Virus record (IMG/VR): IMGVR_UViG_3300006803_002084
Location: 1 to 23,365 of that record
Origin: a virus
DNA: 23,365 bases
Reading direction: 5' to 3' (one strand)
Below are positions 1,281-22,863 of this stretch, piece after piece (the stretch's first letter is position 1; the number at the start of each line of letters is the position of its first letter). Under the pieces are notes generated by a model. That model did no database searches. It worked only from the letters and a program-made list of their open reading frames with translations, and was not told where the DNA came from. The translations under genes were made by a program, and so were the position numbers.

Positions 1281-1290
1281 GAAAATAAGT

Positions 1291-8147: not shown

Positions 8148-8184
8148 GAGCGCATCCCAAGATTTTCGCGCTATAACGTAAGCA
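8148..8184 (+). promoter_or_regulatory. recurrent bipartite phage promoter, copy 1
   Basis: GAGCGCATCCC (8148-8158) is followed by GCGCTATAACGTAAGCA (8168-8184). The distance from CGCA to GCTATAA is 19 nt. The same two boxes, with 19-20 nt spacing, occur at 11607, 12505, 18745 and 22803. The second box resembles a -10 element; the first replaces a -35 and differs from the sigma-70 consensus. It drives the ssDNA-binding protein gene at 8380, giving an unusually long leader of nearly 200 nt. Confidence 0.7.
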
Positions 8185-8238
8185 AGCGCTGACGTTGAGC
8201 GCGACACACAAGCCGATGAAAACCCAGTGAAAAAGACA

Positions 8239-8269
8239 TGCAGGTCTAGCGAGAATATGCTATAAGTTA
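8239..8269 (+). promoter_or_regulatory. possible second promoter before the ssDNA-binding protein gene
   Basis: GCTATAA (8259-8265) followed by GTTATA matches the second box of the recurrent promoter, and TGCAGGTC (8239-8246) sits exactly 20 nt upstream where the first box would be, but matches it at only about half its positions. It may be a weaker or separately regulated start. The match could also reflect the palindrome that overlaps it (8259-8275). Confidence 0.35.
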
Positions 8270-8379
8270 TATAGCTATGTAGCTACATGGTCAGCACGAA
8301 AAGCACAAAGTCCAAAGTCGAAAATACAAAGTCCAAAGTCTCAAAACGCAAAACGCAAAACACAAAAGGAACGCCACAC
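8259..8379 (+). promoter_or_regulatory. structured then A-rich leader of the ssDNA-binding protein gene
   Basis: Two inverted repeats stand side by side: GCTATA/TATAGC (8259-8264 and 8270-8275) and the perfect 12-bp palindrome ATGTAGCTACAT (8277-8288). About 80 bases of A-rich, G-poor sequence follow, built of short repeats, ending at AAAAGGA (8364-8370) and the ATG at 8380. In phage T4, gp32 represses its own translation by binding an unstructured leader nucleated by an upstream folded element. This layout is similar, so an autogenous operator is plausible. Alternatively the stretch codes for a Lys/Ser/Thr-rich N-terminal extension starting at 8287. Confidence 0.4.
8305..8340 (+). repeat. 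15-nt direct repeat in the leader
   Basis: ACAAAGTCCAAAGTC occurs at 8305-8319 and again, identical, at 8326-8340, a 21-nt period. Each copy itself holds two AAAGTC-like half units. A further run of CAAAACG/CAAAACA units follows at about 8342-8366. Such regular single-stranded A-rich units could serve as binding sites for a cooperative ssDNA/RNA-binding protein. Confidence 0.7.
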
Positions 8380-9417
8380 ATGGCAATCAATCCAGCACTC
8401 ACCCGTATGCTCGGTCAGGCCGCAAACAAATACAAAGGCGGAGGCGGTAACAAAGCCGCAAAGCCAGGTGACGGTCGCACACAGATCCGTCTTCTCATTG
8501 ACCCTTCAAAGCCGCTCGAACAGTTCTGGCAGGACTCTGCCGTTCACTGGATCAAAGCCGACGTTAATGGCAAGCCTCTTGTTGTTGTTGGCGACTGTGA
8601 CACCGTCTTCCAGCAGCCCTCTGTTATTAAAGCTGCGATCCAGATGGCCATCGACAATGCCACCGACGAGGACAGCAAGGAACTCTTCGAAAGCTGGAAG
8701 GAAAAGAAGTCTGTCATTTTTCCGGTCATCATTCGTCCTGAGACCGACACGCCTGTTCTGATGGAGCTTACGCCGACCACTTTCGGTAAGATCATGGATT
8801 TGATCACGATGTATGCGACATCTTTGCAGGATCCAAGCGATCCAAACTCAGGCATCGACATTACCGATCTCAACGCCGGTATGGACATCATCATCACCAA
8901 GACTGGCAAGGGTCTTAACACCAGCTATGACGTCGCGATTGCGCCAGCAGGTTCCAAGCCAGTTCCGGCAGATGTATTCACCAAGATGCCTGATGCGTTG
9001 GAATACGTGAAGCGCGAGTTCTTCCGTGGCGAAGAACAGAAAGCCCTGAACGCAATTCAGCAGATCGCCGGTATCGCAGTGCCACGCTTGGCAAACACAG
9101 CAGCAACACCCACAGCAGCGTTGACAGCGCCGTCTGCGGTTGTTCCAGATGCTACTGTTGCTGCACCTGCACCTGTTGCTGCACCTGCACCTGTTGCAGC
9201 ACCTGTCGTCGCTGCTGTTGTCGAACCTGTCGCTGTCGCGCCCGTAGACAATGACATCGCAACACAGATCGCGGCACTTCAGGCGCAGCAGGCCGCGCTT
9301 GTGAAGTCGCAGACAACACCTGCGGCTGTTGCAGAAGCAGAACCTGAGACTGCATCACCGATGCTCTCTGAGAGTGATGCAGACGCCATCCTCGCGGAAC
9401 TTGACCAGCTCAAGTAA
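8380..9417 (+). CDS. probable gp32-like single-stranded DNA-binding protein
   Basis: 345 residues from the ATG at 8380, which has AAAAGGA nearby; an in-frame ATG at 8287 lacks a site and would add a Lys/Ser/Thr-rich extension. The order of parts fits gp32: a short basic Gly/Lys-rich start (KYKGGGGNKAAKPGDGR), a core with TQIRLLIDPSKPLEQFW and AVHWIKADVNGKPLVVVGDC as in phage OB-fold SSBs, a flexible linker, and an acidic C-terminal tail ending ESDADAILAELDQLK that would recruit partner proteins. The gp32 zinc cysteines are not present. The linker (residues ~235-300) is almost only Ala, Pro and Val. It would coat ssDNA in replication and recombination; nuclease, recombinase and SbcCD-like genes follow. 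Identification rests on layout and context more than on motifs. Confidence 0.6.
   Translation: MAINPALTRMLGQAANKYKGGGGNKAAKPGDGRTQIRLLIDPSKPLEQFWQDSAVHWIKADVNGKPLVVVGDCDTVFQQPSVIKAAIQMAIDNATDEDSKELFESWKEKKSVIFPVIIRPETDTPVLMELTPTTFGKIMDLITMYATSLQDPSDPNSGIDITDLNAGMDIIITKTGKGLNTSYDVAIAPAGSKPVPADVFTKMPDALEYVKREFFRGEEQKALNAIQQIAGIAVPRLANTAATPTAALTAPSAVVPDATVAAPAPVAAPAPVAAPVVAAVVEPVAVAPVDNDIATQIAALQAQQAALVKSQTTPAAVAEAEPETASPMLSESDADAILAELDQLK
9157..9204 (+). repeat. 18-nt tandem repeat coding an Ala-Pro linker
   Basis: GTTGCTGCACCTGCACCT occurs twice in tandem (9157-9174 and 9175-9192), followed by a partial third copy. It encodes repeated VAAPAP units in the linker of the ssDNA-binding protein. 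Such a repeat can vary in copy number by slippage and would change only linker length. Confidence 0.8.
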
Positions 9418-9464
9418 CGCAGGTCATTCGATGCAGGTTCCCCTCCCTGGCCTGTATTGAACTC

Positions 9465-9490
9465 GATCCGTTTTCGCGAACGGATCTTTA
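9465..9490 (+). terminator. first hairpin after the ssDNA-binding protein gene
   Basis: GATCCGTT (9465-9472) and AACGGATC (9479-9486) form a perfect 8-bp stem with the 6-nt loop TTCGCG, followed by only three Ts. It is a weak terminator by itself or an mRNA-stabilising end; a second, stronger hairpin follows immediately. Confidence 0.5.
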
Positions 9491-9534
9491 CGGAGTGAGT
9501 GATTGGTCCTTCGCCAGACGCTCACTCCGTTTTT
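9490..9534 (+). terminator. intrinsic terminator upstream of the 5' nuclease gene
   Basis: ACGGAGTGAGTG (9490-9501) pairs with CGCTCACTCCGT (9519-9530), a 12-bp stem with one G-T pair and a 17-nt loop, followed by a run of five Ts (9530-9534). This is a standard Rho-independent terminator. It separates the highly needed ssDNA-binding protein from the nuclease gene, whose ribosome binding site GAGG (9537-9540) begins almost at once, so read-through must supply the downstream genes unless another promoter exists. Confidence 0.8.
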
Positions 9535-9545
9535 ACGAGGTTCAT

Positions 9546-10490
9546 ATGAAAAAGCACCATCTTATCATCGACGGTAATTCGTTGGGTTATTTCGCCAATT
9601 CAGGCAAGAAATTGTCCATTGGTGAGCTGCAGGTTCAGGCGATCTACAATTTCCTGCGCACCTTGCGTCAAGTCTATGCGCTGCACCAGCATTACAACGT
9701 GATCATTCTATGGGATGGTCTGTCTTGGCGCCATCAGATCAGAAGTGACTACAAGGAGCATCGCGATGTGGTCGAAAAGCTATATCAGATCAAACAAGCA
9801 GCCGCCAAAGATGCGTATCGCAAGCAGGTTCCTTACATCAAGCAGGCGCTTGGTTATATCGGTGTTCCTCAGATTTCGGCGGCAAATATGGAAGCTGACG
9901 ACCTTGCGGCGATCTTCACAGACAAGTTCACAGCGCGGGGTGAAACTGTCAAACTTATGACCGGCGACAAGGACTGGTTGCAACTTGTTGGGCCGAATGT
10001 GACATGGCACGACTTCATCAACAAACGCACCGTCACGCACAAAAACTTTGAGGAGTTTACAGGTGTTGCGACGTCGCGCCAGTTTGTTGAGGTCAAGGCA
10101 CTCGCTGGTGACGACGGTGATCTAGGCAAAGGCTCGGGCGTAGGTGGCATCGGTGAGAAGGGCGCAAAAGACTTTCTCAATAAATATGGCAGCTTTACGG
10201 ACTTCATCAACATGGTGTGTCTTGAAAAGTCCATAGATTTCAACAAACTACCAAAGAAACTTAAAGCGCTGGTTGAAGATGAACAAAAGGCGCTGAAGTT
10301 TCAGGAAAACATCTTGTTGATGGACTTGCGCACAGCGGCGCGTCCCGCACCCACTGGCATGACGCTCGATAAGGGCGTCCCGTCACACCACAAAATGGAG
10401 CGGTTCTGCGAGACCCTGCTCTTCAAATCCATTCTGCAAGAGTTCGACGATTGGTTGCGTGTCTTTCCGGCATTCAATCCGACAACCTAA
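9546..10490 (+). CDS. 5'-3' exonuclease / RNase H-type flap nuclease
   Basis: 314 residues from the ATG with GAGG 5 nt upstream; an earlier in-frame start at 9495 lies inside the terminator stem and is rejected. The metal-binding motifs of the FEN/RNase H family are in order: LIIDGNS near the start, WDG...RSDYKEHR, NMEADDLA, LMTGDKDWLQL and the helix-hairpin-helix-type region ALAGDDGD...GVGGIGEKGA. Length matches T4 RNase H (about 305) and T5 exonuclease (about 290). The enzyme removes RNA primers and 5' flaps during lagging-strand synthesis and would work with the DnaE polymerase and the ssDNA-binding protein encoded just upstream. Confidence 0.92.
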   Translation: MKKHHLIIDGNSLGYFANSGKKLSIGELQVQAIYNFLRTLRQVYALHQHYNVIILWDGLSWRHQIRSDYKEHRDVVEKLYQIKQAAAKDAYRKQVPYIKQALGYIGVPQISAANMEADDLAAIFTDKFTARGETVKLMTGDKDWLQLVGPNVTWHDFINKRTVTHKNFEEFTGVATSRQFVEVKALAGDDGDLGKGSGVGGIGEKGAKDFLNKYGSFTDFINMVCLEKSIDFNKLPKKLKALVEDEQKALKFQENILLMDLRTAARPAPTGMTLDKGVPSHHKMERFCETLLFKSILQEFDDWLRVFPAFNPTT

Positions 10491-10513
10491 TCATTCACCA
10501 AGGAGTTAGCTAT

Positions 10514-11602
10514 ATGGCTAAAACATCATCACCGCAGGACATCGTAAATGCTCTGGCAGGCGTCGGTCTGACCAATGACGAAGAAGCAACGCCCACCAAG
10601 TTTCTCGATACCGGCTTTCCGGTTCTGAACCACGCATCGAACGCAGATTGGGCAGGTGGTTTCCCTGTCGGTCGTGTGATCGAAATTGCCGGGCCACCAT
10701 CAGCAGGTAAAACGGCAATCGCGACACGCGCTATGGCAGCTGCACAGAAAATGGGCGGTATCGCTGGTTTCATGGATCATGAGCGCTCGTTCTCGATCAA
10801 GTTGTCACCAAAGCTGGGGCTCGACAACTCACCGGGGCGTTTCATCTATAAGAAGCCAGAGACCTTCGAAGCATCCATCGCGACCTTCCACCTTGCTGTG
10901 TCAACCATTCGCGACAAGAAGCTGATTGATCCCAAAGCGCCGATCTGTTGGGTCTTTGACAGTCTGGCCGCCATGACGCCCTACTCTGTGATCTATGACG
11001 ACAAGGGCAAGCGTCGTGATCCCAATTCGATCAACATGCGCGACAAACTGGCACTTGCGACCGCAACCTCTGTTCACTTTCCTGGCGTCACTCAGGTGGC
11101 CGAGGATTACGGCGTGTGCTGTATCTTCCTGAACCAGATGCGCACGAACATCGGCGTGATGTTTGGTGACAATCGCAAGACCACCGGCGGCAATGCACCT
11201 GAGTTCTACTTCTCGCAGCGGATGTGGCTGTCTTCGAAGAAGATCAAAGTCGGCACGGATGTTATCGGCATGGAAGTCACCGGTCAGTTCGTTAAGAACA
11301 AGGTGGCGCGTCCTTACGGTGAGGCAAAGTGGCGCTTCATGTTTGAGAAAGACGGCACAGGTCGCTTTGATCGTGAGCGGTCATTGATCGACTTCCTCGA
11401 AGCCGAAGGTCATCTGACAAAAGGTCGTCCGGGCTACATCGAATGGGATGGCAAGCAGTATTCGCGTGACCAGCTGACCGATCTTATTCGTGATGAAGGT
11501 GACGCTGGTTTTGACAAGCTGAAAGCGCTTCTGCCGGCATCCTACACACCGCCGGTTGTTGCTCAGATCAGCATAGAAGACGAAGACGACACGGTGTCAT
11601 AA
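10514..11602 (+). CDS. uvsX: RecA/UvsX-type recombinase
   Basis: 362 residues from the ATG 8 nt after AAGGAG (10500-10505). Walker A is GPPSAGKT (residues 60-67), Walker B is in CWVFDSL, and the DNA-binding L2 region has MRTNIGVMFGDNRKTTGGNA, with KTTGGNA at residues 222-228, very close to bacterial RecA. The protein ends in an acidic tail (SIEDEDDTVS) like RecA and UvsX. It should form filaments on ssDNA and catalyse strand exchange, driving recombination-dependent replication and repair. It sits after the flap nuclease and before an SbcD-like gene, the usual T4-like company. The L2 match is closer to bacterial RecA than to T4 UvsX, so either symbol is defensible. Confidence 0.92.
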   Translation: MAKTSSPQDIVNALAGVGLTNDEEATPTKFLDTGFPVLNHASNADWAGGFPVGRVIEIAGPPSAGKTAIATRAMAAAQKMGGIAGFMDHERSFSIKLSPKLGLDNSPGRFIYKKPETFEASIATFHLAVSTIRDKKLIDPKAPICWVFDSLAAMTPYSVIYDDKGKRRDPNSINMRDKLALATATSVHFPGVTQVAEDYGVCCIFLNQMRTNIGVMFGDNRKTTGGNAPEFYFSQRMWLSSKKIKVGTDVIGMEVTGQFVKNKVARPYGEAKWRFMFEKDGTGRFDRERSLIDFLEAEGHLTKGRPGYIEWDGKQYSRDQLTDLIRDEGDAGFDKLKALLPASYTPPVVAQISIEDEDDTVS

Positions 11603-11606
11603 TTAT

Positions 11607-11648
11607 CCCGCACTCCCCATTTGTCTGCGCTATAATAAAGTGCAAGCA
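11607..11648 (+). promoter_or_regulatory. recurrent bipartite phage promoter, copy 2
   Basis: CCCGCACTCCCC (11607-11618) is the first box with one inserted base, and GCGCTATAATAAAG (11627-11640) is the second, followed by TGCAAGCA. CGCA to GCTATAA is 20 nt. This is the most divergent clear copy, and its second box contains a perfect TATAAT. It reads into the ASCH gene at 11665. Confidence 0.6.
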
Positions 11649-11664
11649 AATATGGTGTGGAATA

Positions 11665-12138
11665 ATGAAGACAATAAGCATTTGGCAGCCCTTCGCGACT
11701 TTGATTGTGGAGGGCTGCAAGACCGTCGAGACAAGAACATGGCCAGCGCCAGCATCAGTTATCGGTCAGCGCATCGGCATCGCATCGACAAAGAATATCC
11801 TTCCAGGTCAGCGTGACCAGTGGAACGATCCGGTCTTTCGCATTCACTATGAAATGACCGGTATGCCGAATTATCTGGAGTTGCCGTTTGGGTATCTTCT
11901 GGGCACGGCGGTTCTTGATGCTGTCGATGTTATGACCGAAGAAATGATGGAAGATGTCTCGGACACGGAGTTGAACTTCGGTTGGTGGGAACCAGGCAGC
12001 TACGCTTGGCGTCTGACTGATCCGATCAAACTGGAACACCCCATCCCCATTCGGGGTCAGCAGGGTATCTACGAGTGGAAGGGCAAACTCGATGGACATG
12101 CGCAGAAAAGCGAAGAAGCTGGCAAAGAGCCTGATTAA
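11665..12138 (+). CDS. ASCH-domain protein
   Basis: 157 residues. The start MKTISIWQPFATLIVEGCKTVETRTW is the signature of ASCH domains (pattern SIWQPxAxLIxxGxKxxExR, residues 4-24), and FGWWEPGSYAWRLTDP...PIPIRGQQGIYEW closes the PUA-like barrel. ASCH proteins are thought to bind RNA or modified nucleotides; some have nuclease or amidohydrolase activity on modified nucleosides. They are frequent in phages, with no proven role there. The ATG is 26-30 nt after promoter copy 2 with only a weak GGA. The C-terminus overlaps the next gene by 47 bases. Confidence 0.8.
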   Translation: MKTISIWQPFATLIVEGCKTVETRTWPAPASVIGQRIGIASTKNILPGQRDQWNDPVFRIHYEMTGMPNYLELPFGYLLGTAVLDAVDVMTEEMMEDVSDTELNFGWWEPGSYAWRLTDPIKLEHPIPIRGQQGIYEWKGKLDGHAQKSEEAGKEPD

Positions 12139-12499
12139 GGTAGGCAGGCGAACATACGGCGGCATATACGAGCTAGGTGGGCAGGACGTCTACCTGGCAT
12201 GGCGCAAGACAGCAGAGGTCTTTCGTGGCGGCGAGAAGACACTCTCGGACGCGGTCGAAAATCACAAAGCATCCTGGGCGATGGACAACGACACGCTGAT
12301 TGAACTGCGCGTCAAGGGCGTCAAGATTGTCGGTGTTTGGGTTATGGACACGGACGACAAGTTTCTCGCGCCTATCGACGCCTTCTTCGACCAGTCCCGC
12401 GCCAAGATGATGAACTTCGGCACACGCGGCGGCGCGCTTCAGCGCTATCTACCCCTTGAGCATTTCCACATTCGCGCGGGAACGACGAAGATTAAGTAA
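12092..12499 (+). CDS. unknown protein with basic N-terminus
   Basis: 135 residues. I do not recognise the family. The start has GGAAGGG (12077-12083) at 8 nt and overlaps the ASCH gene by 47 bases in another frame; a second ATG at 12098 would shorten the overlap by only two codons. The first ~20 residues are strongly basic (MDMRRKAKKLAKSLIKVGRR), suggesting nucleic-acid contact. The rest looks like a small mixed alpha/beta domain, with VKGVKIVGVWVMD as a likely strand pair. No metal or catalytic motif is seen. Confidence 0.6.
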   Translation: MDMRRKAKKLAKSLIKVGRRTYGGIYELGGQDVYLAWRKTAEVFRGGEKTLSDAVENHKASWAMDNDTLIELRVKGVKIVGVWVMDTDDKFLAPIDAFFDQSRAKMMNFGTRGGALQRYLPLEHFHIRAGTTKIK

Positions 12500-12504
12500 A
12501 AGCC

Positions 12505-12547
12505 GAGCGCATCCCGTGCTCAAAATTGCTATAAATAATAAGTAAGC
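12505..12547 (+). promoter_or_regulatory. recurrent bipartite phage promoter, copy 3
   Basis: GAGCGCATCCC (12505-12515) is identical to copy 1, and GCTATAAATAATAAGTAAGCA follows (GCTATAA at 12528-12534). The spacing of CGCA to GCTATAA is 20 nt. The GTAAGCA tail is the same as in copy 1. It directly precedes the SbcD-like gene, giving a leader of roughly 20-30 nt. Confidence 0.72.
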
Positions 12548-12567
12548 AATGAACAAGGCTGGATCAC

Positions 12568-13665
12568 ATGACATACGGCGTCGTATCAGACATTCACGCG
12601 CATGCGTGGAATACATTTTCAAAGACAAACCCGGACGGCGTCAACTCCCGACTGCGCATGATCCTTGACGAGCTGGTGCGCGCGGCGCGCACCGTCAAGA
12701 CAGCAGGTGGTAGCACACTTGTTGTCGCTGGTGACATCTTTCACTCACGCGGCACAATCGACCCCGAAGTTCTAAATCCTGTGCGCCAGACCTTCGAGAA
12801 CATTCTCGGGATGGGTCTGGATGTTGAGATTATTCCGGGCAATCACGATCTGAAAAGCCGTGACACGACCGAGCTTGGATCTTCTGTTCAGAACCTCGCG
12901 CAGATCAGCATCACAGGCGGGCAGCTGCGCGTTCATAACCAGCCGGTGATCGTGACGGTAAATGGTCACAATCTTGGCTTCGTGCCGTGGTGCTATTCAC
13001 ATGAGGAGCTGCATGAAGGTCTTGAGACGCTTCGGGCTATGGCGGCGAAGTCAAATGTCACAGATCAGGTGGACGTGTTCATTCATGCCGGTATCGACGG
13101 TGTTCTATCTGGCATGCCTGCGAGTGGTCTGACACCCGCTGACCTGTCGAAATACGGCTTCCGGCGTGTCTTTGCTGGTCACTATCACAATCACGCCGAC
13201 ATGGGCGATGGCGTCTATTCTATTGGCGCTACGACGCATCACAGTTGGCGTGACGTCAATGCGCGCGCCGGGTTCCTGACAGTCAATGATGTAGGCGGCG
13301 TGACATTCAATGACACGATGGCGCCGAAGTTTGAAGATGTCACCGGCTTTGACGAGATGGAAATGGAGCTGGCCTGCAAAGGCAACTATGTGCGCTTCAA
13401 CGGGCCCGCTATGACGCAGCAAGATATTGACCTTCTGCGTCAGCAGTTAACCGCATGGGGCGCGCTTGGCGTGTCAATCCAGGTGCCCAAAGCAACCTCT
13501 CAAGCCGCGACCGCAAGTCCCGTCAAAGGCAAGAACCTCGACACCGTTGTTGAGGAGTTTGTCGATACAAACGCCAGCATTCCAGCCAGCGTTGACAAGG
13601 CGGCCGTAAAGACGCGCGCCGCAGAGGTGCTGCGCTCGGTGAGTGAAGTGGTGGAGGAGGTTTGA
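12568..13665 (+). CDS. sbcD: SbcD/Mre11-type nuclease subunit (T4 gp47-like)
   Basis: 365 residues. The five metallophosphoesterase motifs are present in order: SDIHAH (D8, H10), VAGDIFH, IPGNHD, VFIHAGIDG and AGHYHNH. After the catalytic domain (about 260 residues) comes a capping region, and a C-terminal part rich in Ala, Val and Lys that may bind the partner ATPase. With the SbcC-like product encoded at 16801 it should form the gp46/gp47 complex, which resects DNA ends to start recombination. In T4 the two genes are neighbours; here nine genes lie between their starts. The ribosome binding site is weak (GGA before ATCACATG), perhaps balanced by its own promoter at 12505. Confidence 0.92.
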   Translation: MTYGVVSDIHAHAWNTFSKTNPDGVNSRLRMILDELVRAARTVKTAGGSTLVVAGDIFHSRGTIDPEVLNPVRQTFENILGMGLDVEIIPGNHDLKSRDTTELGSSVQNLAQISITGGQLRVHNQPVIVTVNGHNLGFVPWCYSHEELHEGLETLRAMAAKSNVTDQVDVFIHAGIDGVLSGMPASGLTPADLSKYGFRRVFAGHYHNHADMGDGVYSIGATTHHSWRDVNARAGFLTVNDVGGVTFNDTMAPKFEDVTGFDEMEMELACKGNYVRFNGPAMTQQDIDLLRQQLTAWGALGVSIQVPKATSQAATASPVKGKNLDTVVEEFVDTNASIPASVDKAAVKTRAAEVLRSVSEVVEEV

Positions 13666-13835
13666 TGCCCGTTCCTGTTCTCGCAAAGGAGCTGCACGAA
13701 ATCCTCAAATCCTTATTCTGGATCTGGTTCGTCTTCGTTTTGCAGACGGCTATACTAGATTACCAGATCGGCAATCTGAAGGACCGCATCGAGATTCTCG
13801 AAGCCATCGCTCTTACCCTCCCGACTACCGACTAA
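13665..13835 (+). CDS. 56-residue single-pass membrane protein
   Basis: An ATG overlaps the SbcD-like stop (TGATG), 4 nt after a strong GGAGGAGG (about 13652-13660), and opens 56 codons to TAA. Residues ~14-31 (LKSLFWIWFVFVLQTAIL) form one membrane helix, and the rest (LKDRIEILEAIA) is an amphipathic helix that may oligomerise. No family recognised. The ribosome binding site and coupling make it a more credible gene than its size suggests. Holin-like function cannot be argued from this alone. Confidence 0.6.
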   Translation: MPVPVLAKELHEILKSLFWIWFVFVLQTAILDYQIGNLKDRIEILEAIALTLPTTD

Positions 13836-13841
13836 CGATCT

Positions 13842-13850
13842 GATATAATT
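13842..13850 (+). promoter_or_regulatory. possible extended -10 promoter
   Basis: TGATATAATT reads as an extended -10 (TGnTATAAT) about 25 nt before the next start codon. No good -35 and no copy of the recurrent upstream box is seen at the expected distance, so it may be a host-sigma promoter or chance in an AT-rich gap. Confidence 0.3.
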
Positions 13851-13876
13851 AAAGAAATCAGACAGTGAGGAATAAA

Positions 13877-14236
13877 ATGTCAAAACTCTTTACGATCACG
13901 TTCACCACACAAAAGCGCGTCAAGAAGTTCGACGCGCGGGGCAAGATGGTATCGGAGACCAACTTGGACACACCGGTCACGCTCAGCGCTTTGCCGCTTG
14001 CGACGGCGATGTCTTACTCGGGGTGTGACAACTTCAAAATCAGCGATCATGTGCCGACGCACACAGGCGGTCGTATGTCCGGATCGAGCAAGCCGGGTTG
14101 GGGCAACGCAGCTACCAAGAAATACACGCCGCGCAGTGATGCTCAAGCGACACCAAAGCAAGTCGTTGCTGGCAAGTCCGCTCAGCAAAAGGCCGCAACA
14201 ACAGGCGATTTGTCCGCCGCAATCAATAAGGCCTGA
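13877..14236 (+). CDS. unknown small protein
   Basis: 119 residues from the ATG 6 nt after GAGG (13867-13870); an in-frame GTG at 13865 overlaps that site and is less likely. I do not recognise the family. The first ~60 residues look like a beta-rich fold (LFTITFTTQKRVKKFDARGKMV), with the only Cys in YSGCDNF. The second half is rich in Gly, Ser, Ala, Lys and Gln and probably disordered, ending with a short helix (GDLSAAINKA). It opens a run of small genes leading to the methyltransferase. Confidence 0.6.
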   Translation: MSKLFTITFTTQKRVKKFDARGKMVSETNLDTPVTLSALPLATAMSYSGCDNFKISDHVPTHTGGRMSGSSKPGWGNAATKKYTPRSDAQATPKQVVAGKSAQQKAATTGDLSAAINKA

Positions 14237-14241
14237 CTTAC

Positions 14242-14553
14242 ATGGTAGATCAAGAACTTATGACAGAGCTGGCTGACGGGACATTTGACCCGTCAGCAAA
14301 GCGCGAACCTTTGCAGTATCTCGTTGGTGTCTGCGAAATGGGAGCAGACGGTCGGATCAGGGGCACGCATCACGTATCCTCGACCGTCGCAACCTCGCTC
14401 AACGCAGCAAAGGCATGGGCAATCAATGATACCGCCTGTGACTGGGGTTACGACGCGGCCGATATAGAGAGTTTGCACGTCCTGTTCGTTATGACGACGC
14501 CAGTCGGCGTCAATATTGACTTCGTTGAATACGACGAAGGTGTTCAGACATGA
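14242..14553 (+). CDS. unknown small protein
   Basis: 103 residues, five bases after the previous stop, with only a weak AAGG upstream. Acidic overall, with a likely mixed alpha/beta fold (QYLVGVCEMGADGRIRGTHHV, then LHVLFVMTTPVGVNIDFVEYDE). No family, metal-binding or catalytic motif recognised. The stop overlaps the next ATG (ATGA), so it is probably translated together with its neighbours. Confidence 0.55.
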   Translation: MVDQELMTELADGTFDPSAKREPLQYLVGVCEMGADGRIRGTHHVSSTVATSLNAAKAWAINDTACDWGYDAADIESLHVLFVMTTPVGVNIDFVEYDEGVQT

Positions 14554-14825
14554 CCGAAGAGCAATATGCCGAGTTCTTCCACATCTGGAACATCATCTTC
14601 TCAACGCTCTGGCCCAAAGAGGAGCCGGATATGATGGTTTATCGGGTCGAGAACCTTCCCGAAGATCCAAACGTCAAGATTTTTGCATCGCACTTCACAG
14701 GTCCGGTGCCGCTCACACATACGCTGGTCGGTGAGCCCTTGATCAAGATCGTTTCGCGGGAGGTTGTCTGCGACCTTCTGAAAGAAAAATTCAACATTGT
14801 TTCTGACCTGATGGTGGCCGCATGA
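14550..14825 (+). CDS. unknown small acidic protein
   Basis: 91 residues, coupled to its neighbours by four-base overlaps on both sides. A Trp- and Phe-rich helical start (EEQYAEFFHIWNIIFSTLW) is followed by a likely beta segment and a C-terminal helix (REVVCDLLKEKFNIVSDLMV). The start could contact a membrane or a partner. No family recognised. Confidence 0.55.
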   Translation: MTEEQYAEFFHIWNIIFSTLWPKEEPDMMVYRVENLPEDPNVKIFASHFTGPVPLTHTLVGEPLIKIVSREVVCDLLKEKFNIVSDLMVAA

Positions 14826-16135: not shown

Positions 16136-16329
16136 AAGTGACAAGAAGTGCGTGGGTTTCAAACACCACAGAGACATTGCGTGAAATGTCTTGGAGATAC
16201 GAATGTCGCCGGTGGCAGGTTCTGTTCTGGCTCGGCGTTATGGCGAGCTTTACGCTTGGCATGATGTTCGCAATCGCGATCACAGATGGCTCGATCTTCT
16301 TCTTCACAGAAGGCATGTCTGACAAATGA
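16132..16329 (+). CDS. small single-pass membrane protein
   Basis: 65 residues, start overlapping the methyltransferase stop. A positively charged N-terminal part (residues 1-27) is followed by one membrane helix (about 29-52, VLFWLGVMASFTLGMMFAIAI) and a short Phe-rich, probably periplasmic tail. No family recognised. The stop overlaps the next start. Confidence 0.55.
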   Translation: MKVTRSAWVSNTTETLREMSWRYECRRWQVLFWLGVMASFTLGMMFAIAITDGSIFFFTEGMSDK

Positions 16330-16541
16330 ATTTGCTGGGATGGGCTCTTATCGTAATTCTAACGACCAGAGATGGTCCGGATTTGAAAAAGTTCAGCTTC
16401 GAAACCGAGGCAGGATGCACAGACGCAGCCGAGAAAATCAGATTTGTGGACAGTCGATCAAAGGGCGCAGGCTCCATTGTCGCCTTCTGTGTGTCTGACG
16501 GCAAAAAGAGAAAAACAGGATCAAGGGAGACAGACAGATGA
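16326..16541 (+). CDS. small protein with hydrophobic N-terminus and two cysteines
   Basis: 71 residues. A short hydrophobic start (MNLLGWALIVIL) could be a weak signal or anchor, but it lacks a clear cleavage site. Two cysteines (in EAGCTDA and VAFCVSD) could form a disulfide if exported, as in several small phage proteins with a Cys-x-x-Ala motif. The C-terminus is basic and polar. No function assigned. Confidence 0.5.
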   Translation: MNLLGWALIVILTTRDGPDLKKFSFETEAGCTDAAEKIRFVDSRSKGAGSIVAFCVSDGKKRKTGSRETDR

Positions 16542-16804
16542 TTGGCGCAAGATACGTTCATAAGAAAAGATCCAGCACCTATTCTATTATCGGCGTTGTA
16601 AAATCAATGTCCGCGATGATGGAAGACGGTGATTTTTTTGGGACTTTGCTTATCGACGAACAAAAACACGAAGACGTAATGGTGCAGATTTCAAATGGCA
16701 ATCACGATGGTCCGTGGTGGATCTATGAGAACCACGACGGCATGAAATTTGTGCGCCCAGCGTCCGAATTTACACCAGATCGCTTTGAGAGGATCGAGAC
16801 ATGA
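16538..16804 (+). CDS. small beta-barrel-like phage protein
   Basis: 88 residues, ATG 7 nt after AAGGGAGA (16523-16530). The pattern IGARYVHKKRSSTYSIIGV near the start and MKFVRPASEFTPDRFE near the end is common to small SH3-like phage proteins in which a conserved RHK...Y.VIG opens and WVRP..EF...RF closes the domain. Their role is unknown. It overlaps the SbcC-like start by four bases. Confidence 0.55.
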   Translation: MIGARYVHKKRSSTYSIIGVVKSMSAMMEDGDFFGTLLIDEQKHEDVMVQISNGNHDGPWWIYENHDGMKFVRPASEFTPDRFERIET

Positions 16805-18741
16805 AATTCACCGAACTTAAAATCACCAACTTCCTCGCACTCACAGAGGCGTCGTTACGACTTGACGACCGCGGACTGGTGCTTGTTGAAGGCAAGAACA
16901 CGATCAACCCGTCAGCCAAGTCAAACGGCGCCGGGAAGTCTTCGATCATGGACGCGCTCTGCTGGTGCTGGTTTGGCACGACAGCGCGCGGTGTAACCGG
17001 TGACGATGTGATCAACCGCACTGCAAAGAAGGGCACGTCTGTGTCCTCTACTGTGCTGGACAACAACATCACCTATACTGCAACGCGCCACCGCAAGCAC
17101 AAGACCGGCAAGAACAGCCTTCAGATCACGATGAACGACGGCTTGACTGACACTGACCTGACCAAAGGCACCGATAAGCTGACACAAGAGGTCGCTCGGA
17201 AGATCATCGGCGCGTCCCTCGATGTCTTTACAGGTTCGATCTACGCTGGTCAGGAGAAGATGCCTGACCTTCCAGCCATGACCGACAAAGCGCTGAAACT
17301 TCTGATCGAAGAGGCCGCCGGTATCACCTTACTCGAAGAGGCGTATCAAAAGGCGCGCGAGGGCTTCAACGCGATCAAAGCAAAGGTCGAAAAAGCGCAA
17401 GGCGTCGTTGATCAAACGGTGCAAAAGCTGGGCTGGGTAGATGGTCAGATCGTCAACACGACAAACCAGGTGGATGTCTGGGCCACAAACCACACCACAA
17501 AGGTCGCAGCGCTCAAGCAGCGCGCCGTCAGCGAGGTTCTGACACCTTTGAAGCAAGTGACTGCCGACATTGCCGCAGCGGCCACCACAGGCGATCTCAG
17601 CGCCGCTATCAGCGCCTGTGATCAGAAGATCAGTGCCGTCTCCGGTGAGCAGCAGCAAATGACGCAGCTTGAGGGCGCGGTGATCAGCGCACAGGGCAAT
17701 GTCAACAATGCAGACCGGCGCCAGTCAGCGACGGAGCGTGACATTCAACTGTGCAACAAGGCGCTGCAGGACGTCGATAAGAAGATCGGAACCCCCTGCT
17801 CGGAATGTGGTCGTCCGATCACAATCTCGGAGATTGCCGCAGCGCGCCAGGCGGCGCAGAATGCGCTCACAGCGGCAGAGGAAAAAGGTCTGCTTGAGGC
17901 CAAGGAGTGTCGAGAGGCGCGACACGCGCTGAAAGAAGCTATTGCGGCGCGCGATGCGTTCAAGGAGACGCTGACAGACCTGACGGCGGTTGGTGCCGAG
18001 CGTAACAGCCTGCATCTTCAAATGGCGCAGAGCAATCGTCTTGAAGCCCAGAAGGTGCGTTTGACGGAAGACGGTCATCGCATCAAGAAGGAGATCGTGG
18101 CGCTCTCGAGTGAGGAAAACCCACATCTTGCAACACTGGACCGGCTTGAGAAGGAGCATGTTTCGGCGCTCGAGAGCCACAAAGATGCGGAAAAGGAACG
18201 TGATCTTTTAATGACGCAGTTGGCGGTCGAGCAGGAAGTGGTGAAAATCTACGGACCTGCTGGTGTCCGGGCGCGTGTGTTGGATGACATCACACCGTAT
18301 CTGAACGCGCAGACAGCCAAATACCTCTCGGTTTTGACCGACGACTCCATCGACGCAACCTGGTCGACCGTGCAGATGGACAGCAGGGGCAATCCGAAAG
18401 AGCGTTTTGCCATTGATGTGACCTCTATGAAAGACGCCGGTAAGTTCGACGGGTTCTCAGGTGGTGAGAAGCGCAAGATCCGCGTTGCCTGTGCGTTGGC
18501 GCTGCAGGATTTGGTCTCGACACGCGCGACCAAGCCAATCGACCTGTTTCTCGCAGACGAAGTTGACGACGCCTTGGATGATGCCGGTCTCGAGCGCTTG
18601 ATCTCCGTGCTTGAAGAAAAGGTGAAAGATCGCGGCTCTGTGTTCGTGATTTCGCACAACCCTTTGCGTGACTGGATCAGCCAGGTCGTAACTGTTGAGA
18701 AGACAGCTAAGGGTAGCACAATCTACGAGACCGCTGCATAA
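16801..18741 (+). CDS. sbcC: SbcC/Rad50-type ATPase subunit (T4 gp46-like)
   Basis: 646 residues. An ABC-type head is split by long coiled coils. The N-terminal half has LVEGKN and Walker A SNGAGKSS (G43-S47), then a Q-loop region (YAGQEK). Coiled coils follow, with the zinc hook CSEC at residues 333-336 in the middle. The C-terminal half carries the signature FSGGEKRK (552-559), Walker B LFLADEVDD (582-590) and the H-loop VISHN. Size is close to T4 gp46 (560) and much below E. coli SbcC (1048), so the coils are short. It partners the SbcD-like nuclease at 12568 in end resection. Confidence 0.93.
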   Translation: MKFTELKITNFLALTEASLRLDDRGLVLVEGKNTINPSAKSNGAGKSSIMDALCWCWFGTTARGVTGDDVINRTAKKGTSVSSTVLDNNITYTATRHRKHKTGKNSLQITMNDGLTDTDLTKGTDKLTQEVARKIIGASLDVFTGSIYAGQEKMPDLPAMTDKALKLLIEEAAGITLLEEAYQKAREGFNAIKAKVEKAQGVVDQTVQKLGWVDGQIVNTTNQVDVWATNHTTKVAALKQRAVSEVLTPLKQVTADIAAAATTGDLSAAISACDQKISAVSGEQQQMTQLEGAVISAQGNVNNADRRQSATERDIQLCNKALQDVDKKIGTPCSECGRPITISEIAAARQAAQNALTAAEEKGLLEAKECREARHALKEAIAARDAFKETLTDLTAVGAERNSLHLQMAQSNRLEAQKVRLTEDGHRIKKEIVALSSEENPHLATLDRLEKEHVSALESHKDAEKERDLLMTQLAVEQEVVKIYGPAGVRARVLDDITPYLNAQTAKYLSVLTDDSIDATWSTVQMDSRGNPKERFAIDVTSMKDAGKFDGFSGGEKRKIRVACALALQDLVSTRATKPIDLFLADEVDDALDDAGLERLISVLEEKVKDRGSVFVISHNPLRDWISQVVTVEKTAKGSTIYETAA

Positions 18742-18744
18742 ATG

Positions 18745-18781
18745 TAGCGCAGCCCTTCCCTGTCGCGCTATAGTGTAAGTA
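18745..18781 (+). promoter_or_regulatory. recurrent bipartite phage promoter, copy 4
   Basis: TAGCGCAGCCC (18746-18755 region) and GCGCTATAGTGTAAGTA (18765-18781) repeat the two boxes, with CGCA to GCTATA 19 nt apart. It lies in the short gap after the SbcC-like gene and reads into the unknown gene at 18802 and the RuvC-like gene. Confidence 0.68.
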
Positions 18782-18801
18782 TGAAATGACTGAGGCGTGT
18801 G

Positions 18802-19410
18802 ATGAAGAAAATAGGAAATTTATGCAACGAGATTGTTCTGTCGGCGCCGACACATTCGACGGTCATATCCGGTGATGTGATAAGCAACGGCTCAATCTCC
18901 GCAAGTTCCATAAAGTCAGATACGATATTTACACATGAAAGCGAGGAGACGGGTATGTCTTTAACCAAAGAAGACAAGGAGGTTCTTGAAGATGTCGGCA
19001 ACCGGATTGTTCATAAGATGATCCACGATGATGCCATTTTCGAGTGTGATGGCATCACGAAGATTACCGTGAAGATGAAGGACGGCGAGTATCGTAAGAA
19101 GGCAATTCTGGCGGGCACAAAGTTCTATCTCGACAGTTCCTATGTCGGCAAACAGGAAAGCCTGATCTTTGTTCTGACGCCTCTGGAAGACTTGGGTGAC
19201 ATCGCCAAGGTCGAGATCGGAATGCGTGACGGCGACGGCTTCTTTCCGCTGATGGGCGGCCAGATCGCGAGCGCCTTTGGCCTCCGGTCTGTCGAGTCCC
19301 TTCATCGTGCCGTGTTGATGATCACGGATCTTGCGAAAGAGGAAAGAGAAGAAATGAAGATAGAGGACGAGGAAATCATGACAAACAATCCACTTTGGGG
19401 AGCGTTCTGA
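18802..19410 (+). CDS. unknown protein, two possible starts
   Basis: 202 residues if started at 18802 (GAGG at 18792-18795, 6 nt away), which follows promoter copy 4 by about 20 nt. A second in-frame ATG at 18955 has a stronger GAGGAG (18943-18948) at 6 nt and would give 151 residues. The extra N-terminal 51 residues are Ser/Ile/Thr-rich (VISGDVISNGSISASSIKS), unlike the rest. The core is charged, with strands (KITVKMKDGEYRKKAILAG, LIFVLTPLEDL) and an acidic end. No family recognised. Both forms may be made from one mRNA. The stop overlaps the RuvC-like start (TGATG). Confidence 0.6.
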   Translation: MKKIGNLCNEIVLSAPTHSTVISGDVISNGSISASSIKSDTIFTHESEETGMSLTKEDKEVLEDVGNRIVHKMIHDDAIFECDGITKITVKMKDGEYRKKAILAGTKFYLDSSYVGKQESLIFVLTPLEDLGDIAKVEIGMRDGDGFFPLMGGQIASAFGLRSVESLHRAVLMITDLAKEEREEMKIEDEEIMTNNPLWGAF

Positions 19411-19982
19411 TGGCGCTTATCCGCATAGCAGGCCTTGACGGATCGCTGAGAAACTTTGGCACCGCCCTTATGACGCTGGATACCGTGTCGATGGAGCTGA
19501 AGGTTGATGATCTGATCCTGACAAAGACGAAGAAGTCAGCGGCAAAACAGGTGCGCATTTCATCCGACTATATGGATGCTGCGTTGATCATCCGGGATAC
19601 GGTTGATCCCGCACTGCGCGCATTCAACCCGGCCGCTATCTTTGTTGAGGTGCCATCAGGTGGTCAGGACTATAAAGCCGTTATGGGCTTTGGGATTGTG
19701 ATCGGGCTTTATGCGTCCTTGCACATTCGCCCAACCGAAGTTTCACCGTCCGAGACCAAACAGGCGGCCGTTGGCACGAAGACAGCGTCCAAGGAAGAAA
19801 TGATCGAATGGGCTTTTGAGAAGTTCCCCGATGCTAAGTGGCTGACGCGCAAACTCAAAGGCAAGATTGTCCCGATCAAAGACAACGAACACCTCGCTGA
19901 CGCGGTCGCAATCGCACACGCCGGTATCCGTCTGCCCGTCTTTAAGCAAAGTCTGGCGATTATCAATTCAAGGGCTGCATAA
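19410..19982 (+). CDS. RuvC-like Holliday junction resolvase
   Basis: 190 residues from the ATG 7 nt after GGGGAG (19397-19402). The RNase H-fold acidic residues of RuvC are visible in order: D in IAGLDGSLRNFGTA, E in AIFVEVPSGGQ, and the C-terminal pair in KDNEHLADAVAIAHAG. The RuvC-like PSETKQAAVGTKTASKEEM segment lies between them (compare PSEVKQAVVG in bacterial RuvC). It should cut branched DNA before packaging, the job T4 gives to endonuclease VII. It is translationally coupled to the unknown gene upstream. Some phage RuvC-like proteins act on other branched structures, so the exact substrate is open. Confidence 0.82.
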   Translation: MALIRIAGLDGSLRNFGTALMTLDTVSMELKVDDLILTKTKKSAAKQVRISSDYMDAALIIRDTVDPALRAFNPAAIFVEVPSGGQDYKAVMGFGIVIGLYASLHIRPTEVSPSETKQAAVGTKTASKEEMIEWAFEKFPDAKWLTRKLKGKIVPIKDNEHLADAVAIAHAGIRLPVFKQSLAIINSRAA

Positions 19983-20001
19983 CCACATTTTGTGCTTGAA
20001 G

Positions 20002-20033
20002 ATAAGTAACCGCTGACATATTGTGGCAGGTCT
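20002..20033 (+). promoter_or_regulatory. possible promoter for the ribonucleotide reductase gene
   Basis: In the 94-base gap, TTGAAG is followed after 17 nt by TATTGT, an arrangement allowed for a housekeeping-type promoter. The recurrent two-box motif is not present. A short GCGCTAGAC near 20034 resembles its second box but lacks the first. The gap is too short for a cobalamin riboswitch, and no B12-box-like element is seen. Confidence 0.3.
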
Positions 20034-20076
20034 GCGCTAGACGCAAATCCATTCACCTTAAATAAACGAGAAAAAC

Positions 20077-22512
20077 ATGAACCAGATTACTGCGCGCGAC
20101 TATTTCCCAGGCATGGGTGCCGCTGTCGCCGACCGCACCGTAAACCGCCGCATTTTTACAGACAATCAACGCGCTTCGCTTCCGAAGGTGCTCAAACTCA
20201 ATCAGGATGACCTGCACTACAAAGCCTGGTCAAACGCAGCAGAACTGTCCGGTCATCCTTTCAAGGTTGATGATAAAGCGGCACATCAGAAATCAGAACC
20301 TGAAACACGGATGGAGCGCTGGGAAGAGGTCGCAAAGCGTGTCGCAGAGGGCAATACCTCTCTTGTCGAAGATGAGGCGCTTGGGCTGGCAGATCGCGAT
20401 GTGATGGAGAAGCATCTGCGTCAGGCATCCTTGTTGATGTCTGGTCGTCACCTTCAGCACGGCGACATTCGTCAGAAAGACCGCCCAATGGAGGTCTTCA
20501 CAAACTGTTCCAGTGCCGCGGCTGCATTCTTGAAATTCTACCTGCTTTTGAACGGCTCCGGCGTTGGTCGTTCTTATGACGATGCGATGATGAAGGTCGA
20601 CTGGCGCAAAATGCCAACCGTCTATGTGGCGATCGACGATGATTACAAAGACCGTCAGATCGCAGCGCTCGATGGCAACGGCATGATGGTGAAGGAAAGT
20701 GTCAACTCAATCGCCTGGTTCAAAAAGGCGATCAAGAGCGGAAAAATTGGCGCTACTGAAAAGGTCACAATCTTTGATGTTTCGGACAGCCGCTCTGGCT
20801 GGGCAAAAGGCATCGAAGTCATTGAGCGCATGGCATACGAAGGTCGCAGCGATGAAGTCCTGATCCTCGACTTCTCCGGTGTGCGTCCATACGGCAGCCC
20901 AATTCGCGGTATGCAGAACCGCCCCTCCTCCGGGCCCGGTCCGCTCATGGATGCGATCATGAGCCTTGCCGCTGTAAAGTTCCTTGATCTTGAGCCGTGG
21001 GAAGCGACGATGCACGTCGATCACTTCCTGTCCGCCTGTGTGATGGTGGGCGGTGCGCGCCGCGCGGCACGTATGGCAACGAAGTATTGGAAAGATGCAG
21101 GCATCTTCCGCTTCATCAATATCAAACAGTCGGCCGGTCTGTGGTCTTCAAACAACTCTGTGACCATTGACGAAGAGTTCCGCACCGCCTGTGTGCGCAT
21201 GCGTGGGCTCGTCAAGGCGTATCCGGTCACGCCGGTCGAGAGCATGCCCAAGATGGGTCTCTGCTCGCCCGTTGAAGCGCATGCGTGGACTGTTCTGAAC
21301 GCAATCGCAGAAGCGTCCTATCATCACGGCACTGGTGAGCCCGGCATTATCAATCAGGACAAGCTGACAGCAAAAGACGATGGCATCGAAGACTATCTCG
21401 ACGGTCTGTTTGCCGGGTCGCGCGACTATCAGGTGGACGACAGCACGCTTGACCTGATGAAAGAGTTGGCAGCCTCGATCCAGAACGTCAAATACACGAT
21501 GATCACCAACCCCTGCGGTGAGATTACGTTGCTGATGTTGGGCGCCTATTGTGTGATCGCCGATGTCGTGCCGTTTCACGCAACCAGTGACGATGATGCG
21601 GAAGAAGCGTTCCGTGTTGCCGTGCGCGCGCTGATCCGCACGAACACGATGGACAGTCTCTACAAGCGCGAGGTGAAGCGCACGAACCGGATCGGCGTTG
21701 GCATCACAGGTCTGCACGAATGGATCTATGCGCGCTTCAAGTTCGCCTGGAAGGACATCATCGACGAGGAGAAGTCGATGGAGATGTGGCAGATGTTGTC
21801 GCGCTTCAAACGTGCCATTGTTGACGAGGCGCGAACATTCTCTGAACTGATGGGTGTTGTTGTTCCGCATACAGACACGACAGAGAAACCCGCCGGCACA
21901 ACGTCGAAGCTGTTCGGTCTGTCCGAGGGCGCGCACTTACCGTCAATGCGTTTCTTTTTGCGCTGGGTCCAGTTCCGCAACGACGATCCTCTTGTGCAGG
22001 AATACGCAGACAAGGGCTATCCAGTGCGTAAACTGACCACCTATCCCGGCGTCAGTATTGTCGGCTTTCCCACCGCTCCCGCGATCTGTCAGATGGATGG
22101 CGGCGAATGGGTCACGACAGCATCAGAGGCGACCCCGACTGAGCAGTATCAGTATCTTCGCCTTCTGGAGAAATACTGGATTGTTGGTGTTGCAGAAGAC
22201 GGCGTCACGCCTCTTGCTGAAACAGGCAACCAGATCTCCTACACCCTGAAATACGATCCGAATGAGGTCTCCTACGAGGAGTTCTTCGAGACCATGATTG
22301 ACGGTCAGTTCAGCATCCGGTGCTGCTCTGTGATGCCAAAGTCAGACATGACGGCTTACGAGTATCAGCCGGAAGAACCGATCAGTGCAGAGGTCTACAA
22401 AGACCTGATGCAGAAGGTCGAGGGCGGTGTGAAGGAAGAAATTGACTTCGCACATGTGGATTGCGGCTCAGGTGGCTGTCCAATCGACTTCGAAGACCGC
22501 GCGGTAGCTTAA
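20077..22512 (+). CDS. nrdJ: class II (adenosylcobalamin-dependent) ribonucleotide reductase
   Basis: 811 residues; reduces ribonucleotides to deoxyribonucleotides using a radical made from adenosylcobalamin. It matches the monomeric type of Lactobacillus leichmannii RTPR (739 residues). FTNC supplies C144, NPCGE supplies the thiyl-radical cysteine C480 and glutamate E482, and GAYC supplies C492, the redox partner of C144. The C-terminal CGSGGC (C796 and C801) has the same C-x4-C spacing as the regenerating pair of RTPR. No separate small subunit or iron-binding NrdB is seen, as expected. The glutaredoxin after the terminator could reduce it. The CobT/CobS-like genes at the other end of the window may relate to its cofactor. 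Ribosome binding site weak (ACGAG). Confidence 0.92.
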   Translation: MNQITARDYFPGMGAAVADRTVNRRIFTDNQRASLPKVLKLNQDDLHYKAWSNAAELSGHPFKVDDKAAHQKSEPETRMERWEEVAKRVAEGNTSLVEDEALGLADRDVMEKHLRQASLLMSGRHLQHGDIRQKDRPMEVFTNCSSAAAAFLKFYLLLNGSGVGRSYDDAMMKVDWRKMPTVYVAIDDDYKDRQIAALDGNGMMVKESVNSIAWFKKAIKSGKIGATEKVTIFDVSDSRSGWAKGIEVIERMAYEGRSDEVLILDFSGVRPYGSPIRGMQNRPSSGPGPLMDAIMSLAAVKFLDLEPWEATMHVDHFLSACVMVGGARRAARMATKYWKDAGIFRFINIKQSAGLWSSNNSVTIDEEFRTACVRMRGLVKAYPVTPVESMPKMGLCSPVEAHAWTVLNAIAEASYHHGTGEPGIINQDKLTAKDDGIEDYLDGLFAGSRDYQVDDSTLDLMKELAASIQNVKYTMITNPCGEITLLMLGAYCVIADVVPFHATSDDDAEEAFRVAVRALIRTNTMDSLYKREVKRTNRIGVGITGLHEWIYARFKFAWKDIIDEEKSMEMWQMLSRFKRAIVDEARTFSELMGVVVPHTDTTEKPAGTTSKLFGLSEGAHLPSMRFFLRWVQFRNDDPLVQEYADKGYPVRKLTTYPGVSIVGFPTAPAICQMDGGEWVTTASEATPTEQYQYLRLLEKYWIVGVAEDGVTPLAETGNQISYTLKYDPNEVSYEEFFETMIDGQFSIRCCSVMPKSDMTAYEYQPEEPISAEVYKDLMQKVEGGVKEEIDFAHVDCGSGGCPIDFEDRAVA

Positions 22513-22520
22513 CGACAACA

Positions 22521-22545
22521 GGGCGGTCTTCGGACCGCCCCTTTC
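22521..22545 (+). terminator. terminator after the ribonucleotide reductase gene
   Basis: GGGCGGTC (22521-22528) and GACCGCCC (22533-22540) form a perfect 8-bp GC-rich stem closed by the very stable TTCG tetraloop, followed by CTTTC. The T-run is short, but the stem and loop are typical of intrinsic terminators. It lies between the reductase and the glutaredoxin gene, so glutaredoxin expression depends on read-through. Confidence 0.8.
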
Positions 22546-22561
22546 ACATGGAAAGTCAGAA

Positions 22562-22786
22562 ATGACCAAAAGATACGAAATCGTCAAGACCGGTAAGCCA
22601 TGCAGATATTGCGAACTGGCAGAGGCGCTGCTCATTCAGAAGAAGCTACCCTACCATGTATCACTGCTTGATACATGCGAGAAGCAACAGGCGTTCTTGA
22701 ACGCAGGCTTCAGCACCGTTCCACAGATTTACGAAAATGGCGATCACGTTGGTGGTTACGATGAACTCGCTGCGCGTCTTTCTTGA
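22562..22786 (+). CDS. glutaredoxin
   Basis: 74 residues, typical of small phage and NrdH-like glutaredoxins. The redox motif is CRYC (residues 14-17) after a short strand (YEIVKTGKP), the cis-proline is in STVPQIYENG, and HVGGYDELAARL forms the last helix with the GG that binds glutathione. It would reduce the C-terminal cysteine pair of the adjacent class II ribonucleotide reductase. ATG 6 nt after GGAAAG (22550-22555). A perfect 15-base palindrome (22778-22792) covers its stop codon. Confidence 0.9.
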   Translation: MTKRYEIVKTGKPCRYCELAEALLIQKKLPYHVSLLDTCEKQQAFLNAGFSTVPQIYENGDHVGGYDELAARLS

Positions 22787-22802
22787 AGAAAGCACGTAAC
22801 CC

Positions 22803-22840
22803 GAGCGCATTCCGATCACTAAAGCGCTATAAAGTAAGTA
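22803..22840 (+). promoter_or_regulatory. recurrent bipartite phage promoter, copy 5
   Basis: GAGCGCATTCC (22803-22813) and GCGCTATAAAGTAAGTA (22824-22840) are the best complete match to the consensus, with CGCA to GCTATAA 20 nt apart. It reads into the unknown gene at 22864 and the ThyX gene, with a leader of about 24 nt. Confidence 0.75.
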
Positions 22841-22863
22841 TAAACTGAACAATCGAGGGCAAA

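Follow-up and report, generated by a model that had tools for sequence, protein, structure and literature searches.

A Conserved Promoter Class and a Probable Repressor Operator in the DNA-Metabolism Region of a Phage-Plasmid Lineage

Five copies of a two-box, promoter-like motif lie ahead of DNA-metabolism genes in the viral contig IMGVR_UViG_3300006803_002084, and they raise the question of which proteins read them and whether box, -10, and tail form one promoter. The window analyzed here is this complete IMG/VR contig of 23,365 bp, a fragment of a phage that leaves the remainder of the regulon out of view. Reading the sequence confirmed the coordinates of the five sites (8148, 11607, 12505, 18745, and 22803), their plus-strand orientation, and their intergenic position. 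The distance from CGCA to GCTATA, originally given as 19–20 nt, measured 19, 20, 20, 19, and 20 nt, respectively. The motif was present at every site, but its exact letters differ from site to site. The upstream box (box A) reads CGCATCCC, CGCACTCC, CGCATCCC, CGCAGCCC, and CGCATTCC, and the -10 region reads GCTATAAC, GCTATAAT, GCTATAAA, GCTATAGT, and GCTATAAA, respectively. The GTAAGTA/GTAAGCA tail, described as conserved in all copies, was found at four of the five sites and is missing at 11607, which has only GTGCAAGCA. Among the downstream genes proposed, ssb, ASCH, SbcD, and a RuvC-like resolvase were recovered, whereas the ThyX assignment was not, the gene being truncated at the right edge and giving no Pfam match. 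ThyX is encoded in Rhizobium phage X66 near the corresponding place. The positions of all features are collected in Table 1.

Gene order and proteins place the window virus in the RHEph10/pLM21S1/B1VFA phage-plasmid lineage. Its closest annotated relatives are the Rhizobium phages B1VFA, V1VFA-S, X66, and RHEph10 (115–122 kb) and plasmids such as pLM21S1. These relatives have been called phage-plasmids (PMC4447125, PMC5537653, PMC12509600). The gene order found in the lineage is rep-XRE-cobT-cobS-sigma-PHROG_3616-dnaE-ssb-exo-recA-ASCH-sbcD-sbcC. The CobT- and CobS-like genes 5' of the polymerase (positions 1–2601) are kept in all relatives examined. Another contig, L025, comes from the same virus (its sigma protein is 99% identical) and reaches 7.4 kb upstream of the window. 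It carries a sixth copy of the promoter at L025:1071 (24.2 bits), ahead of the gene at 1136. Its replication initiator (L025:4149–5168) is of the RPA type (PF10134, 3e-84), unlike the RepC initiator of the RHEph10/pLM21S1/B1VFA phage-plasmids. Repeated CGACACTTCACCCATA-type direct repeats adjoin the initiator gene (L025:5205–5345) and have the look of plasmid iterons. These repeats support a phage-plasmid life style for the window virus, with a replicon unlike the RepC of its relatives. The plasmid life style is a trait of the family (PMC4447125, PMC12509600), and no lysogen of the window virus itself was seen. Mitomycin C failed to induce pLM21S1 (PMC4447125).

Table 1. Predicted promoter and operator features and candidate regulatory genes in the window
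Feature	Position	Strand	Basis or remark
Second partial dyad 5' of cobS	1286–1303		
Putative operator dyad without box-A promoter, 5' of cobS	1331–1348	.	Operator found 5' of cobS in every relative tested
Phage sigma factor; region 2 clear, region 4 not recognizable	2598–3242	+	Pfam, structure model
PHROG_3616 protein; four invariant Cys and C-terminal winged helix; candidate box-A activator	3239–3772	+	
Box A (CGCATCCC), putative ssb promoter	8151–8158	+	Motif models, orthologous positions
-10 GCTATAA, putative ssb promoter	8170–8176	+	Motif models
Weak putative operator dyad TAAGCAA-GCGC-TGACGTT, ssb	8179–8196	.	Held-out PWM, 8.2 bits
Box A (CGCACTCC), putative ASCH-protein promoter	11609–11616	+	Motif models, orthologous positions
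-10 GCTATAA, putative ASCH promoter	11629–11635	+	Motif models
Box A (CGCATCCC), putative SbcD-like nuclease promoter	12508–12515	+	Motif models, orthologous positions
-10 GCTATAA, putative SbcD promoter	12528–12534	+	Motif models
Putative operator dyad TAAGTAA-GCAA-TGAACAA, SbcD; left arm good, right degenerate	12539–12556	.	7.9 bits
Box A (CGCAGCCC), unknown gene plus RuvC-like resolvase	18748–18755	+	Motif models, orthologous positions
-10 GCTATAG, unknown gene plus RuvC-like resolvase	18767–18773	+	Motif models
Putative operator dyad TAAGTAT-GAAA-TGACTGA, resolvase promoter	18776–18793	.	17.9 bits
Putative operator dyad TAAGTAA-CCGC-TGACATA without box-A promoter, 5' of ribonucleotide reductase	20003–20020	.	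20.2 bits
Box A (CGCATTCC), gene after glutaredoxin	22806–22813	+	Motif models, orthologous positions
-10 GCTATAA, gene after glutaredoxin	22826–22832	+	Motif models
Weak putative operator dyad AAAGTAA-GTAT-AAACTGA, overlapping the -10 end	22831–22848	.	8.2 bits

A held-out test was used to evaluate the five sites. A two-block PWM was built from 14 B1VFA intergenic sites only, and the window was scored on both strands. The sites from 8148 to 22803 reached 23.6, 25.8, 21.6, 15.1, and 29.2 bits, respectively. They were the top five in the window on both strands, with the next best match at 11.1 bits. Shuffled windows gave 0.2 matches of at least 15 bits each and a mean maximum of 12.8. A first motif model, whose training set combined sites of the window and of B1VFA, was run over the whole B1VFA genome. 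It returned 35 matches, comprising 27 intergenic plus, 1 intergenic minus, 6 coding plus, and 1 coding minus. The motif is thus enriched between genes across B1VFA, as the original prediction had proposed to check. The structural module of B1VFA (~49–84 kb) contained no intergenic plus-strand promoter match with this first model.

The promoters are also conserved by position. B1VFA, pLM21S1, and X66 each carry box-A promoters of at least 15 bits at the same five genes, which are ssb, ASCH, SbcD, the gene after SbcC, and the gene after glutaredoxin. Between the window virus and B1VFA, the RecA-like proteins are 63% identical and the sigma proteins only 36.5%, so this conservation is not leftover DNA identity. 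Held-out scoring, shuffles, and orthologous positions together ruled out a chance origin of the five sites. Members of the RHEph10 clade scored poorly with the B1VFA model because their -10 has drifted (GCTATTC, GTTAGT), and GCATCCC/GCGTCCC boxes are still visible there. In a collection scan with box plus operator, most of the single matches listed were expected by chance according to a rough calculation, and multi-match contigs alone are meaningful, so the scan carries no weight in what follows. The stretch between the ssb promoter and ssb (8255–8290) holds AGCTAT/ATAGCT repeats (GCTATAAGTTATATAGCTATGTAGCTAC). Similar TAGCTA repeats occur at the same place in B1VFA, X66, and pLM21S1 and are possibly an ssb-specific control element.

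Box A, with the consensus yGCRnTCC, lies at about -34 to -27, 13–14 bp before TATAA, and stands in place of a -35. Its distance to the -10 is sharply fixed in B1VFA (TCC-N11..13-GCTATAA). The Caulobacter RpoD consensus consists of a TTGaCgS -35 and a GCtANAWC -10, and GCTATAA fits this alphaproteobacterial housekeeping -10, while box A is unlike TTGaCgS (PMC8144410). The view that the upstream box is not a sigma-70 -35 holds for the box, while the -10 by itself is an ordinary host-type element. The Pseudomonas nickieviruses nickie and hairong show CCC-N13-TATAAT at fixed spacing, with 10 and 9 plus-strand sites versus 2 and 1 on the minus strand, respectively. With a stricter pattern over 49 kb of nickie, every match was intergenic. 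Their -10 is the gamma-type, TATAAT-like element of their own host, and the geometry is as in the window virus. The nickievirus CCC box may correspond to box A on the basis of this geometry and the CCC core. The -10 regions of nickie and hairong often lie within short GCGC-flanked inverted repeats, e.g., GAGCGCTATCATTAGCGCTC, perhaps another operator. Compared across these genomes, the -10 follows the host and the box the phage. Host sigma-70 assisted by a phage activator bound at -30 would produce this pattern.

Host factors alone could also suffice, with box A serving as a host activator site or as an atypical -35 of the host and phage proteins dispensable. Early phage promoters often run on host factors alone, and the -10 here is host-like. 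However, box A departs from the host -35 consensus and finds counterparts in phages of other hosts, and it was missing from the related SSU5 and Cupriavidus elements in fixed-spacing searches. We consider a host-only arrangement quite improbable.

The sigma factor encoded in the window is another potential reader. Promoter choice is known to be redirected by phage sigma factors, as with SPO1 and T4 gp55. Region 2 of the protein was clear by Pfam (6e-9), and its model matched the structure of sigma domain 2 with Z 8.9 and rmsd 1.5 over 71 residues. Such a sigma could read the whole promoter, its C-terminal domain taking GCRnTCC as the -35, perhaps with PHROG_3616 as a second subunit. Every alphaproteobacterial member examined has a sigma gene with region 2 within the same operon. 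The C-terminal domain is predicted, with moderate confidence, to be helical, and its helices are superposable on a sigma-4-like second domain. Against this, the protein gave no Sigma70_r4 Pfam match, nor did any of four whole records. The -10 is of the host housekeeping type and varies with host class. The nickieviruses share the box geometry, yet the whole nickie record gave no sigma70_r2/phrog_351 match and 49 kb of hairong gave no sigma. Conversely, BUCTxx99 has the sigma and PHROG_3616, but no clear box was seen. From these distributions, the phage sigma appears neither necessary nor sufficient for the box, and we judge it unlikely to be the reader of the whole promoter.

A host sigma with a phage activator at box A requires a candidate for the activator, and the leading one is PHROG_3616, encoded directly 3' of the sigma gene. 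This protein carries the Cys pattern C-X13-C-X2-C-X5-C and a winged helix with pLDDT of about 85–94. The two structure models, for sigma and PHROG_3616, drew on eight sequences each and were of moderate confidence, with means of 70.5 and 73.5. The N-terminal Cys pattern (3239–3345) recalls the WhiB iron-sulfur motif. Family identity could not be taken from the fold, as the matches were winged helices in general (Fur/PerR, Z about 8–9). The T4 MotA activation domain was among the Foldseek matches at rank 50 only. PHROG_3616 was found wherever the box occurs, and nickie and hairong encode it at full length. SSU5, which lacks the box and the sigma, has only the cysteine part as a short separate gene. 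The protein also occurs in Cupriavidus and BUCTxx99 without a clear box, so it is not sufficient and stands only as the leading activator candidate. That PHROG_3616 is a new kind of sigma-70-redirecting activator, recognizing a -30 box across several host classes, in phages as well as in phage-plasmids, is a tentative and rather doubtful proposal. If PHROG_3616 does act as the activator, the lytic program might depend on redox through a metal or iron-sulfur center.

The tail proved to belong to a separate element, the 18-bp dyad T[AC]AGT[AC]A-N4-T[GT]ACT[GT]A, whose left arm is GTAAGTA. In an unbiased count of all 7-Nk-7 inverted repeats in family genomes, T[AC]AGT[AC]A or its 1- or 2-base shift, with a spacer of exactly 4, was the commonest half-site in most genomes. 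B1VFA contains 30 strict dyads with spacer 4, compared with 0–2 for each other spacer from 0 to 10. Allowing matches at 12 or more of 14 positions gave 44 dyads with spacer 4. Nearly all of the alphaproteobacterial and Cupriavidus relatives examined show enrichment of the dyad, with a half-site that varies by clade. TAAGTAA is used in B1VFA, X66, pLM21S1, and Shinella, TAAGTCA in Methylobacterium oryzae, and TCAGTCA in Methylobacterium AMS5, RHEph10, and even a betaproteobacterial Cupriavidus plasmid. The TAAGTAA/TAGGTAA dyads of SSU5 are only loosely similar.

Window dyads were scored with a PWM trained without the window's virus, and eight sites reached at least 8 bits, against 0.5 expected. 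The right arm is degenerate at three window sites. The ASCH promoter at 11607 has no operator, and none of good quality was found at the ASCH gene of B1VFA, LM21, or X66 either. Dyads also lie 5' of cobS and ribonucleotide reductase, where no box-A promoter was found in any genome tested, and the reductase gene of relatives likewise has the operator upstream. An operator-like TCAATAA-GGCC-TGACTTA (14223–14240, 18.0 bits) lies right before the ORF at 14242 and overlaps the end of the previous gene. It may be a chance match, as one shuffle scored 18.6. Counted from the G of GCTATAA, the dyad begins 5–16 nt downstream, depending on the copy. Dyads also precede late genes that have no box A. RHEph10 (L024, 10021–10078) and Y2_11 (L037, 18660–18717) have a further dyad upstream of box A that overlaps the box on this side, which places the promoter between two operators in the RHEph10 clade. 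The structural genes of B1VFA (L027, 56–84 kb) have the dyad without box A, and several of these dyads are followed by a CAAT/TAT-like sequence, which suggests a separate late promoter class.

A single promoter including the tail was ruled out, as the arms of the dyad keep a constant spacing while its distance from the -10 varies, and some dyads have no promoter beside them. The idea of a phage-specific regulon is supported by the enrichment in B1VFA and the orthologous conservation, and only the fusion of box, -10, and tail into one promoter had to be abandoned. Variable placement, also without box A, fits a repressor better than a core element of a promoter. A 5'-leader RNA hairpin, acting on mRNA stability or translation, would account for the frequent position of the dyad between the -10 and the ribosome-binding site and for a possible 7-bp stem with a 4-nt loop. 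However, the dyad is also found in untranscribed positions, namely over TTGAC before the XRE gene and 5' of box A in RHEph10 and Y2_11. In addition, the window arms pair badly (TAAGTAT/TGACTGA), and the spacer is fixed at 4. A hairpin function is very unlikely on this evidence. The 18-bp dyad is most likely the operator of the lysogeny repressor of this phage-plasmid family.

The candidate for this repressor is an XRE/Cro-C1-like protein. Its gene, of about 130–180 codons, adjoins the replication genes 5' of cobT in all annotated members (11 loci). The copy of the window virus lies outside the window (L025:5625–6038), and its XRE domain scores below the Pfam cutoff. An XRE HMM gave no match in 49 kb of SSU5. 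A dyad was found 90–205 bp upstream of the XRE gene in all 10 genomes with enough upstream sequence to be tested, a score that 5–7% of random 220-nt stretches reach. In most genomes, this dyad contains or overlaps TTGAC, a host-type -35. Its presence in 10/10 genomes, mostly over TTGAC, makes autoregulation of the XRE gene likely, and the XRE protein is the most likely candidate for the dyad binder.

Taken together, we propose that the five sites are phage-specific promoters, probably of a middle-type (delayed early) class, a timing that we infer. The host housekeeping sigma would read the -10 GCTATAA. A phage-encoded activator, for which PHROG_3616 is the candidate, would bind the yGCRnTCC box centered near -30 in place of a -35. 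The start regions other than that at 11607, four in all, contain an operator dyad in full or degenerate form. During the plasmid (lysogenic) state, a repressor on dyads genome-wide would silence the lytic genes, with the XRE/Cro-C1-type protein, whose gene lies between rep and cobT, as the most likely repressor. We consider this combination of host sigma, phage activator, and XRE-type repressor to be reasonably likely.

The literature searched on the RHEph10/pLM21S1/B1VFA phage-plasmids yielded no promoter or operator description, and nothing published was found on how lytic genes are silenced and switched on in this alphaproteobacterial lineage. Our findings offer a concrete, testable control scheme that applies to many genomes and specifies both the DNA sites and the candidate proteins. 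The promoter/operator signature can be used to locate operons in uncultured relatives. The scheme may also represent a nonhomologous parallel to sigma appropriation in T4.

T4 middle promoters (MotA/AsiA sigma appropriation) likewise combine a host sigma-70 -10 with a phage box near -30 that replaces the -35. They also drive DNA-replication genes, with the MotA box 12±1 bp from the -10 in T4 versus 13–14 bp here (PMC2988021). The T4 box TGCTTtA is unrelated to the yGCRnTCC of the window virus, and many promoters of the window lineage are additionally covered by a repressor-type operator, unlike T4 middle promoters. No MotA/AsiA match (PF09158/PF09010) was obtained in four records, in a search run without a positive control. 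As in SPO1/T4-type phage sigma systems, the window encodes a sigma-70 region 2 protein, but the box distribution does not follow the sigma gene. Repressor-type sites scattered between the genes of a temperate phage are known from the C1 operators of phage P1. The operators/stoperators of cluster A mycobacteriophages (L5, Bxb1) also number in the tens, are scattered between genes, and vary in sequence by clade (PMC6550527). The L5 sites are asymmetric and mostly not promoter-associated, whereas those of the window lineage are symmetric 7-4-7 dyads often near promoter starts. The promoter class and operator set are real, conserved, and undescribed in the literature searched. Their types of parts are already known, and the novelty lies in their combination, the box, and the likely factors.
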